A DNA stretch of 41,982 nt from a virus, in IMG/VR virus record IMGVR_UViG_3300031699_000003, positions 1-41,982 of that record. One strand, given 5' to 3'. Positions within the stretch are counted from its first letter, which is position 1, and each line of letters opens with the position of its first letter. The notes under the pieces were generated by a model. The model had not been told where the DNA came from. It did no database searches and saw only the letters and a program-made list of their open reading frames with translations. A program made the position numbers and the translations under genes. Of this stretch, positions 3,894 through 41,982 are shown in pieces.

Positions 3894-4219
3894 AGCACTT
3901 TAGAGGCGAGGATTTAGGATGTACTCGATGTGATTTTTACCAGTATGCCTTGAAGGATCATTTTTGTCAACGTGGAAAGCACATGGGTTATAAAAAATGT
4001 GGATGGTACTGGATAGAACAGAAGGAACCGGCCTGGAATGGAGTTGACACACTACGAAAAGCCATTTCAATATTAAAAGATGGTATTCGGTGGGACGACC
4101 ATGACGATCTGAGAGTTTGTCTTGCTATGCTGGAAAGAATAGAATTTGCAAATAAGGGAATTATAAAAAGACAAGCCGGGGTGGTAGCCGCGAACGGCAA
4201 CGGTGCGGAAGGTGAGTAG
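3890..4219 (+). CDS. Hypothetical early protein with N-terminal Cys cluster (109 aa)
   Basis: Starts at ATG 3890 in an ATGA overlap with the previous gene. Residues 10-38 contain CTRCDFY, HFCQRG and KKCGWYW, a Cys-rich knuckle. The middle (TLRKAISILKDGI, DDHDDLRVCLAMLERIEFANK) is helical and amphipathic. The last residues are low-complexity (ANGNGAEGE) and lie over the hairpin at 4171-4251. Function unknown. Confidence 0.65.
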   Translation: MKHFRGEDLGCTRCDFYQYALKDHFCQRGKHMGYKKCGWYWIEQKEPAWNGVDTLRKAISILKDGIRWDDHDDLRVCLAMLERIEFANKGIIKRQAGVVAANGNGAEGE

Positions 4220-9608: not shown

Positions 9609-10112
9609 CTACTCCAGAATTGTGAAAGTGAATTCATCCCTCCGGTCATCAGCGAGCGTCGGCCCCTGCGGTTCCATCTCGCCCATTGACACAACAGAGA
9701 TCCGGTCTTCGTCGATTCCTCGGTTTGACAGATAGAGCTTTGCCGCGAGTCCACGGTGCTGACCCAGGGCCATGTTATACTCAAAACTTCCGATCCGGCA
9801 TGTGTGTCCCTCGATCAAAAGTTTGGAGTTCGGCTTGTCGATCATCTCTTTGTATATTTTATCCAGCTCGACCATGCTGCCCTCTCGGAGCGTCCACTTG
9901 TCAAAGTCGAAATAAATCTGGAACGGATACGAAACCTCGAACTCCTGTTTTTCCACTTCCTTTTCAACCTGTGGAGCCGGTACAACGGCTTCAGGCTCAG
10001 ACGATATAGCGTTTTCCAAAGTGTCTTCATATAATTTTTTTTTAGAGCAATCGGTTAAAATTCCAACGAGCAACACGCAAACAAAAACAATCGAATCACG
10101 TTTCCAGTTCAT
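9609..10112 (-). CDS. Pal/OmpA-type peptidoglycan-binding protein (167 aa)
   Basis: Residues 1-22 (MNWKRDSIVFVCVLLVGILT, then DCSKK) look like a signal peptide with an atypical lipobox (Asp before the Cys). Residues 60-165 are an OmpA C-terminal domain: YFDFDKWTLREGS, IEGHT, EYNMALGQHRGLAAKLYL, RISVVSMGE. In the family the motif GHTD provides the Asp that contacts peptidoglycan; here it reads GHTC, while the Arg (QHRG) is kept. Sitting among lysis-like genes, it might bridge or disturb the outer membrane-wall link, perhaps in place of a spanin. That role is inference. Confidence 0.75.
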   Translation of the reverse strand: MNWKRDSIVFVCVLLVGILTDCSKKKLYEDTLENAISSEPEAVVPAPQVEKEVEKQEFEVSYPFQIYFDFDKWTLREGSMVELDKIYKEMIDKPNSKLLIEGHTCRIGSFEYNMALGQHRGLAAKLYLSNRGIDEDRISVVSMGEMEPQGPTLADDRRDEFTFTILE

Positions 10113-37197: not shown

Positions 37198-37446
37198 GTG
37201 GATGATTTGAAATTAGAAGCATGTAAAACGTGCGGTGGAATTCCAGCAGTTGTAACTTATAACTCTGGTCAAAAATTAATCAGGTGTAAGTGCGGAATGC
37301 AGACAAGTACCAAGTTAACAGTTCGTGCTGCTGCCGATATTTGGAATGGTTATCATGAGCCTTCGTTAAAGGAAGTAATGGTCGATCTTTTATCTGAAAT
37401 ACGCTCACTAAATCAGCGGAACGCCGGTCCTTCGGTTAACAAATAA
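37198..37446 (+). CDS. Lar-like zinc protein, GTG start (82 aa)
   Basis: GTG 37198 follows AAAGGAGTTCGC. ACKTCGGIPAVV, then IRCKCG near residue 28 and VRAAADIWNGYH near residue 45 give the CPxCGG ... C-x-C ... A-x-x-x-W-N pattern of the Lar-like family. A likely role is countering type I restriction, as in the cassette at 1057. Two independent Lar-like cassettes in one genome are notable. Its tail is encoded in site n. Confidence 0.6.
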   Translation: MDDLKLEACKTCGGIPAVVTYNSGQKLIRCKCGMQTSTKLTVRAAADIWNGYHEPSLKEVMVDLLSEIRSLNQRNAGPSVNK

Positions 37447-37563
37447 ATGGTTCAATTGTCGGCCCTGGATAATCGCGGTGATGGCCACGTCAAGGTCCAA
37501 CGGTGGAGGTCCGGTTCGACTCCGGTAGGGGCCGCCAACTGCACCATTTATCACACGTTGTGG
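37434..37563 (+). other. attC-like site n (130 bp) enclosing a tRNA-like sequence
   Basis: The left core GGTTAAC (37434-37440) and right core GTTGTGG (37557-37563) flank ATAAATGGT / ACCATTTAT arms. The left core corresponds to its cassette start ATTAACC at 37161 (TTAACC matches). The terminal loop holds a 77-nt tRNA-like sequence in place of a zinc-ribbon coding loop. Confidence 0.8.
37461..37537 (+). tRNA. tRNA-like sequence inside attC-like site n, possibly degenerate
   Basis: The 3' half is convincing. A GGTTCGACTCC T-arm with four stem pairs is followed by an acceptor strand AGGGGCC, a discriminator G and an encoded CCA. The 5' end GGCCCTG pairs with the acceptor strand at six of seven positions, including one wobble. 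A 4-bp stem GGCC/GGTC with loop ACGTCAA would give anticodon GTC (Asp), but the base before the anticodon is C rather than the usual T. The D-arm is short and poorly formed and the variable region is long, so this may be a decayed or non-canonical tRNA. Folding with tRNAscan-SE or Infernal would decide. Confidence 0.4.
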
Positions 37564-37596: not shown

Positions 37597-37923
37597 ATGG
37601 AAAATACACAACTTATGGCTGAATATAAAAAGCACATGATGATATGTAAGAGACCTGTATTGCCAACGTCTGAATTTACATATCATACCACACATTATGT
37701 TCTTTGGTTAGAAAAGGAAGTGGAAAAGGCTCGCGCAAACTCCAAACATAAGAACGGCGGCACGGAAGCGGCAAGTGGGGCAGAGCAGCCACAACAACCG
37801 CAGGGCGAAATTTTTGAATCTCTTGACAGGCTAGAATATTGTTCTCCAAAATCAGAGCCGTGGATTGCTGAAAATGCAAAATTTTTACGAAGCGAGATTA
37901 AAAAACTATCGCCCGTGCGGTAA
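37597..37923 (+). CDS. Cassette protein with acidic/Glu-Pro tail (108 aa)
   Basis: I choose ATG 37597 behind AAAGGAG; the longer frame from 37447 would read through the tRNA-like sequence. Residues 1-45 are helical (MENTQLMAEYKKHMMICKRP, LWLEKEVEKARANSKH). A Gly/Gln/Pro-rich linker (GAEQPQQPQGE) follows, and residues 75-108 are a separate helical unit encoded by site o. Function unknown. Confidence 0.6.
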   Translation: MENTQLMAEYKKHMMICKRPVLPTSEFTYHTTHYVLWLEKEVEKARANSKHKNGGTEAASGAEQPQQPQGEIFESLDRLEYCSPKSEPWIAENAKFLRSEIKKLSPVR

Positions 37924-37932
37924 ACGTTGTCC
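37789..37932 (+). other. attC-like site o (144 bp), last site of array 2
   Basis: The left core CCACAAC (37789-37795) and right core GTTGTCC (37926-37932) flank arms ACCGCAGGGCGA and TCGCCCGTGCGGT. The left core with flank GCCACAAC is the exact reverse complement of the cassette start GTTGTGGC at 37557. The loop encodes the C-terminal 40 or so residues of the gene at 37597. Confidence 0.85.
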
Positions 37933-41436: not shown

Positions 41437-41703
41437 ATGGGATATGAGGGATATGCGGATGAAAGGGTTAGATGTGATGTGTGTGGAAAATTTATCGCAT
41501 CATCTGAATATAAGCAAGGACTTGCTTGGGACGATATGCACTTTCCCAATAAAAGTTACCATCTCAAATGCAAGCCCGTGCCGTTAAGAAATAGGAACAT
41601 TCACACAGCGAAGCGTAGCAAGGGGCATAGCACAAATAACAACCGTATGAGTGCCATGCGAAGCGCACAGCATCATACTTTCCCGTTGGTGTCGCTTCGC
41701 TAA
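41437..41703 (+). CDS. Zinc-knuckle cassette protein read through its attC-like site (88 aa)
   Basis: I start at ATG 41437 (AGGAGACGGC upstream) rather than 41383, which lies before the cassette boundary. RCDVCGKFIASSEYKQG, then SYHLKCK gives a CxxC pair with a partner Cys. The last 40 residues (TAKRSKGHSTNNNRMSAMRS) are read through site a and its flank and are probably not selected. First cassette of array 1. Confidence 0.65.
   Translation: MGYEGYADERVRCDVCGKFIASSEYKQGLAWDDMHFPNKSYHLKCKPVPLRNRNIHTAKRSKGHSTNNNRMSAMRSAQHHTFPLVSLR
41634..41691 (+). other. attC-like site a (58 bp)
   Basis: The left core AAATAAC (41634-41640) and right core GTTGGTG (41685-41691) flank an imperfect stem. The left arm CCGTATGAGTGCCATGCG pairs with the right arm CGCACAGCATCATAC with unpaired bases, as in folded attC. 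The left core is the reverse complement of the start of its own cassette at 41399 (GTTATTT, 7 of 7). The 35 bp upstream of the left core is nearly identical to that upstream of site d. Confidence 0.8.
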
Positions 41704-41732: not shown

Positions 41733-41982
41733 ATGAAATTTATAAAAGTAAAGCCTTGGCGGTCTGGTCTTGACGGTGAAATGGTGAGGGTGGAAGTGGA
41801 TTTAACGCAAAGCGAATTTTTGGAGTTAAATATTGCACTCAAAGAATTGCGGAACGGTGGGCCTTCCACCAACAAAGCGAATGGTGGCTCCGAAGCGGAG
41901 GCCCAAATTTGCCCTTATTGCAGTGGCGATCCTGTAATTGAATATTACGATAATAAATGGAAATGCTTTTATTGCAATGGTA
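41733..41982 (+). CDS. Zinc-ribbon cassette protein, 5' part (continues at 2-130)
   Basis: ATG 41733 follows AAAGGAGCGC. The first 45 residues (KVKPWRSGLDGEMVRVEVDL, then TQSEFLELNIALKELRNGG) resemble an alpha-beta domain. After a STNKANGGSEAEAQ linker comes the CPYC...CFYC ribbon. The frame continues across the contig junction to TAA at 128-130, about 91 residues in all. The 3' half is encoded by attC-like site b. Confidence 0.7.
   Translation, partial: MKFIKVKPWRSGLDGEMVRVEVDLTQSEFLELNIALKELRNGGPSTNKANGGSEAEAQICPYCSGDPVIEYYDNKWKCFYCNG
41867..41982 (+). other. attC-like site b, left part (completed at 1-140)
   Basis: The left core CACCAAC (41867-41873) begins a long site whose right core GTTGTCG lies at 134-140 after the contig junction, giving about 149 bp in circular reading. 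Stem arms are CGAATGGTG and CACCATTCG. The stretch between the arms codes for a zinc ribbon in the overlapping gene. The left core matches the start of its own cassette at 41685 (GTTGGTG, 7 of 7). From AGCGAATGG onward the site is identical to site h for 127 bases. Confidence 0.75.

Follow-up and report, generated by a model that had tools for sequence, protein, structure and literature searches.

A segment resembling the 3′ end of a tRNA in the hairpin of an attC-like site of an integrase-less phage cassette array

What does a sequence that looks like a tRNA, complete with an encoded CCA, do in the loop of a recombination site? The question is raised by positions 37461-37537 of the virus record IMGVR_UViG_3300031699_000003 (IMG/VR), which was analysed as a whole (the window is the entire record of 41,982 bases). 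For this element, the original prediction had offered a tRNA supplied by the cassette (GTC, Asp), an RNA fold or RNase processing point, or a decayed tRNA gene caught by recombination. The record encodes TerL, an SU10-like capsid protein and adaptor, exonuclease VIII, RecT and a DnaB-type helicase. A search of the record for tyrosine recombinases (PF00589) gave no matches, and serine recombinases were covered solely via Pfam scans of selected ORFs. The array region had no nucleotide match by blastn against a phage collection, and nothing useful was obtained when relatives of RecT and TerL were sought among viral contigs. The parts of the locus are listed below.

37198-37446, + strand: cassette ORF for a Lar-like zinc-ribbon protein (82 aa), its stop codon lying within the left attC arm of the 37438 site
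37438-37562, + strand: attC-like recombination site, with an AAC box at 37438-37440 and a GTT box at 37557-37559, whose stem re-forms on the bottom strand
37443-37465, + strand: left attC arm, located by an inverted-arm search
37461-37510, + strand: 5′ acceptor strand GGCCC(TG) and the rest of the loop, including the D and anticodon arms of the original prediction, with no detectable tRNA character
37511-37537, + strand: tRNA 3′-end-like segment of 27 nt, composed of a T stem-loop (TTCGACT), the 3′ acceptor strand AGGGGCC, the discriminator G and CCA
37529-37551, + strand: right attC arm, formed on its inner side by the 3′ acceptor strand and CCA of the tRNA-like segment

The tRNA-like piece does sit in the loop of an attC-like site, as had been proposed, between inverted arms of 23 nt that are 87% complementary (37443-37465 and 37529-37551), and it is flanked by AAC (37438) and GTT (37557) as in the sister sites. 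The whole is an imperfect inverted repeat bounded by AAC and GTT, in one orientation and between small ORFs, and the outer part of the right arm resembles the family arm AACNTCACCATTTATC. The boxes read GGTTAAC and GTTGTGG instead of the strict R boxes RYYYAAC and GTTRRRY; since pairing is confined to the AAC/GTT core, the label "attC-like" is used throughout. For an attC site to work, its bottom strand has to fold back on itself as a hairpin; folded as DNA, the bottom strand of the 37438 site had a z of -3.4, with 1 of 200 shuffles as good. After the single TAA of the Lar-like ORF, the same frame stays open across the loop. A coding role of this loop was rejected as unsupported, given that the loop-frame peptide had only weak partial matches in phages by tblastn (5 records, E 0.1 or worse) and that a longer ORF through the loop retrieved nothing convincing from Pfam or PHROGs.

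A strict scan for attC-like sites (AACA followed by a stem and a suitably spaced GTT box) located nine distinct sites on the + strand of the window, at 886, 1294, 2136, 2376, 3008, 36322, 36757, 37438, and 37793, and none on its - strand or in six dinucleotide shuffles of the window. Site 2744 was added by a second version of the scan, which sites 1294 and 3008, found by the first version, fail; sites near 600-660 and at 41629 were spotted by eye only. The invariant columns of an 11-site alignment fall in the AAC and GTT cores, and seven of eight bottom strands folded as DNA were much more stable than their shuffles (z -3.3 to -5.5), the eighth, that of site 2376, being no stabler than shuffles (z -0.1). 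With at least two attC-like sites and no integrase nearby, this is an integrase-less phage array of attC-like cassette sites (CALIN). A right-arm pattern matched 16 virus stretches, and the same site family as in the window was recognised in four of these records (L017, L019, L023, L025), with 13 sites within the fetched parts. Together with nine candidates from the window, these make up the 22 scanned attC-like candidates, a number that includes candidate 39605, which is inside a gene far from the array and probably false. A viral attC pattern search returned a single match, attributable to chance, the attC pattern in genome contigs gave seven singletons with no attC stem by eye, and searches with exact tRNA-like and arm patterns were unproductive. 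Separately, a 107-nt repeat common to the contig ends (1-107 and 41876-41982) is located within an attC-like site and has a third copy at 2749-2875 (127 nt identical to the record start); inferring circularity from it could be wrong, or the array could run across the junction.

The loops of the sister sites are of several kinds, as the following examples illustrate.

886-1024, + strand: sister attC-like site; its outer arms are similar, and its loop of 76 nt is structured, non-coding and not tRNA-like
2744-2888, + strand: sister attC-like site with a zinc-ribbon-coding loop, the loop sequence being repeated at both contig ends
36322-36444, + strand: sister attC-like site whose loop encodes a Cys-pair C-terminus
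37793-37931, + strand: sister attC-like site with a coding loop without a ribbon

The statement that the loops of the other long sites code for zinc ribbons holds for 36322, 2376, and 2744, all with Cys-pair segments, and fails for 37793 and 886. Identical attC-like sequence with a zinc-ribbon loop (ICPYCSGDPVIEYYDNKWKCFYCNG) occurs at 2744-2888 and 41733-41982 behind two different ORFs, so that the recombination site itself apparently adds an interchangeable zinc-ribbon tail to the C-terminus. Sites of this kind with long loops were also noticed in further virus records (L028 12988-13103, L036 1308-1439, and L032 16925-17092), and the loop at L028 12988-13103, at least, reads as a Cys-pair C-terminus; these loops suggest that coding may be a wider feature of this attC family.

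Is the element a tRNA? Its coordinates (37461-37537) were confirmed, together with the acceptor stem GGCCCTG/AGGGGCC (6 of 7 positions paired, including a T.G wobble) and the T arm TCCGG-TTCGACT-CCGGT (4 of 5 pairs), which is followed by the discriminator G and CCA. The poor D arm and the C at position 33 are likewise correct for the alignment in which they were described; position 8 is a G, and the acceptor stem terminates in G.A. Default ARAGORN called no tRNAs in the window, Rfam at the gathering cut-off found nothing there, and RF00005 had no hit at E ≤ 10. A tRNA-Sec identity (RF01852, a family with a long variable arm) was considered and rejected: a search of 401 bases gave 15.2 bits (E 2.8) where the gathering score is 47, the alignment was weak and skipped most of the middle, and the whole-window search did not list it. 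When relaxed to 85%, ARAGORN made four calls in the window, the element among them. At 90%, a rival call at 9688-9777 passed and the element failed unless an intron was allowed. With the loop shuffled and the arms kept, 14 of 3000 sequences were called at the same ARAGORN setting, and the whole cloverleaf is marginal against chance.

The encoded CCA, the T loop and the relaxed ARAGORN call would agree with a functional phage tRNA (Asp GTC or Trp CCA) as the content of the cassette. Against it stand the silence of every model at normal cut-offs (default ARAGORN, Rfam), 5′ two thirds that are not tRNA-like, D and anticodon arms included, the C at position 33 in place of U33 and the G at position 8, and an anticodon that shifts with the alignment, from GTC (Asp) in the original prediction to CCA (Trp) in the ARAGORN call. 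We therefore gave up the idea that the cassette supplies a tRNA, and regard it as very improbable.

The 3′ end gave another result. Against a panel of 32 phage tRNAs drawn from two virus loci only, the 3′ 28 nt reached an alignment score of 35, which none of 300 shuffles equalled and which compares with a median of 36.5 and a minimum of 23 for the same part of the real tRNAs scored by leave-one-out, while the 5′ 49 nt scored 26 (real-tRNA minimum 28) and were matched by 115 of 300 shuffles. The 3′ 27 nt are as tRNA-like as real phage tRNAs, and this quality is absent 5′ of the segment; since the 5′ part shows nothing, the homology begins around position 50 of a tRNA, which is what a fragment would show. 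A 3′-half motif (T stem of at least 4, GTTCRANYC, acceptor of at least 6, and NCCA) occurs once in the window on both strands taken together and in none of 60 window shuffles. A scan for it covered 430,784 bases of loci, without L001, L017, L019, L023, and L025, which duplicate other sequence. The 48 places found are 44 ARAGORN tRNAs, three uncalled places, all at the locus that holds a 31-tRNA cluster, and the 37438 site, the 44 called matches not being a rate because many of the scanned loci were chosen for holding tRNAs. Among the 22 attC-like candidates, the 37438 site was the only one with a tRNA or half-tRNA signal. Two features had to be discounted or weighed separately. Pairing of the acceptor strands amounts to the inner attC stem and is hence no independent evidence for a tRNA. 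As for the CCA, its final A is matched by an A in six of seven comparable right arms (886, 2744, and five from other records) and CA is present in two of the seven (by eye), so the CC is mostly not arm consensus.

Searches for a donor gave near matches and no exact one. Sixteen of 398 Pseudomonadota genomes contained the 27-mer within three mismatches, at 17 places in total (reversed pattern: 0); of 12 such loci examined, 11 proved to be the 3′ terminus of a tRNA called by ARAGORN. No exact donor tRNA was present among these 398 genomes, the best candidate having three mismatches, and at this stringency the 27-mer was absent from 395 Bacteroidota and 7 other genomes. A 25-base form with one free base had no match in viral contigs, and a looser viral pattern matched two stretches, a tRNA-Leu in the 31-tRNA cluster and an uncalled stretch just upstream of a tRNA-Gly. 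In the virus record L011, a stretch at 4080-4143 is tRNA 3′-half-like, has no ARAGORN call and lies directly upstream of a tRNA-Gly gene. A blastn search with 91 nt gave short pieces only (E 0.8 or worse in phages, 0.2 or worse in plasmids), and many of the phage pieces listed fall in annotated tRNA genes. No homologue of the 37438-site loop was found and no array held a second copy; the element was absent from all 13 attC-like sites that were scanned in the other virus records. No cloverleaf score above background and no conserved copies, the outcome named beforehand as speaking against the element, is largely what was found for the whole cloverleaf, and is not what was found for the 3′ half.

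The main alternative is chance, i.e., an ordinary long, GC-rich, folded attC loop in which a T-arm-like hairpin happens to lie beside the stem. Several observations point this way: the whole cloverleaf is at background, the attC stem itself supplies the acceptor pairing, there are no conserved copies, and a similar hairpin that is not a tRNA exists at sister site 886. That loop, without an Rfam match, forms a CCCGG/CCGGG hairpin, a structure different from that of the 37438 loop, and has strong predicted DNA structure (z -5.5); such CCGG-type hairpins are a warning that hairpins are common in loops of this type. Moreover, an open-ended first reading inflates the odds of a notable find (look-elsewhere effect), which is a counterpoint to any reading based on capture. 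What chance accommodates poorly is the occurrence of the motif in only 7 of 200,000 loop shuffles that kept the stem and CCA, the position of the 37438 site as the sole motif place outside tRNA genes and the tRNA cluster in the 430,784 bases, and a 3′ part that scores like real tRNAs. We consider chance a possible but rather unlikely explanation.

Predicted RNA folds bear on a further possibility, a functional mimic, in which an acceptor/T-arm minihelix in the transcript would be recognised by RNase P, RNase Z, EF-Tu or the CCA enzyme and would process or protect the mRNA. The most tRNA-like part is exactly such a minihelix with its CCA, and in the attC context, the first five acceptor pairs have probabilities of 0.97-1.0, against 0.06-0.09 for the T stem. 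The T stem pairs, on the other hand, have probabilities of 0.05-0.09 in the predicted ensemble, the minimum-energy fold puts another hairpin at the T-arm region, and only one nucleotide of CCA is left unpaired, the other two belonging to a longer stem. With the T arm in less than 10% of the predicted ensemble, we do not favour an RNA fold or RNase processing point. Also counting against a mimic, which we hold to be improbable, are the T stem of 4/5 pairs, the G.A at the acceptor end and the lack of conserved copies in related arrays.

Of the three original options, the decayed tRNA gene caught by recombination fits best, once it is narrowed from a gene to a tRNA 3′-end fragment. We lean, with moderate confidence, towards a fragment of this kind captured in an attC-like hairpin, with a role in recombination and no tRNA function. 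From the alignments, scans and folds we infer the tRNA ancestry, the capture route and the recombination role without tRNA function as follows. Illegitimate or site-specific recombination would have joined the terminal part of a tRNA, from roughly position 50 through CCA, to an attC right arm. The left arm would have become, or stayed, complementary to the acceptor strand, as the attC bottom strand must fold into a hairpin, and the acceptor strand would now double as the inner attC stem. The site would serve cassette recombination by a host integron integrase acting in trans on the folded bottom strand, and the tRNA part would be a relic without tRNA function. A related alternative places the origin in a phage attP core: a temperate ancestor integrated at a tRNA 3′ end, and the identity segment was left behind. 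It shares with capture a homology confined to the tRNA 3′ end, and is disfavoured by the lack of a PF00589 tyrosine recombinase in the record and of an exact tRNA, by the position of the segment exactly inside the attC hairpin, and by the complementary 5′ strand, which an attP does not need; we give it marginally less credence than the mimic.

If the inner stem is indeed a tRNA 3′ end, the 37438 site would be a concrete case of a foreign hairpin joining a cassette; even as a mere relic, it would mean that structured sequence of foreign origin is tolerated in long attC loops. The capture idea is directly testable through a search for the tRNA donor. We know of no settled answer to the origin of attC sites. 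It is conceivable, although we think it doubtful, that capture of tRNA 3′ ends could create or extend attC sites, the acceptor strand and T arm providing a ready snap-back stem, and the product being a hybrid of an RNA minihelix and a DNA recombination hairpin.

Phage CALINs, attC clusters lacking an integrase, are already known (Qi et al. 2023, PMC9892861), and five of six phage attC sites tested recombined with IntI1 (PMC9892861). As far as these arrays are described there, the window shares with them small cassettes, palindromic attC-like sites, a single orientation and the absence of an integrase. It differs in its R boxes, which are GTTG-type (GTTGTG, GTTGGTG) and not strict GTTRRRY, in that several of its loops are coding, and in that one carries what resembles a tRNA 3′ end; by word search, "tRNA" does not appear in the main text of that article (PMC9892861). 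The terms "attC", "tRNA-like" and "integron" were not found together in the open-licence PMC literature.

Compared with phage tRNA genes (e.g., the 31-tRNA cluster, L010), the element has the same 3′ 27-28 nt of T arm, 3′ acceptor strand and CCA, but it is without a proper D or anticodon arm, is uncalled at normal settings and lies in an attC hairpin. Many attachment sites of tyrosine-recombinase phages and islands that target tRNA genes have homology limited to the tRNA 3′ end. The homology of the element stops at the tRNA 3′ end as in those sites; unlike them, it has no integrase found with it here and is flanked by attC arms.
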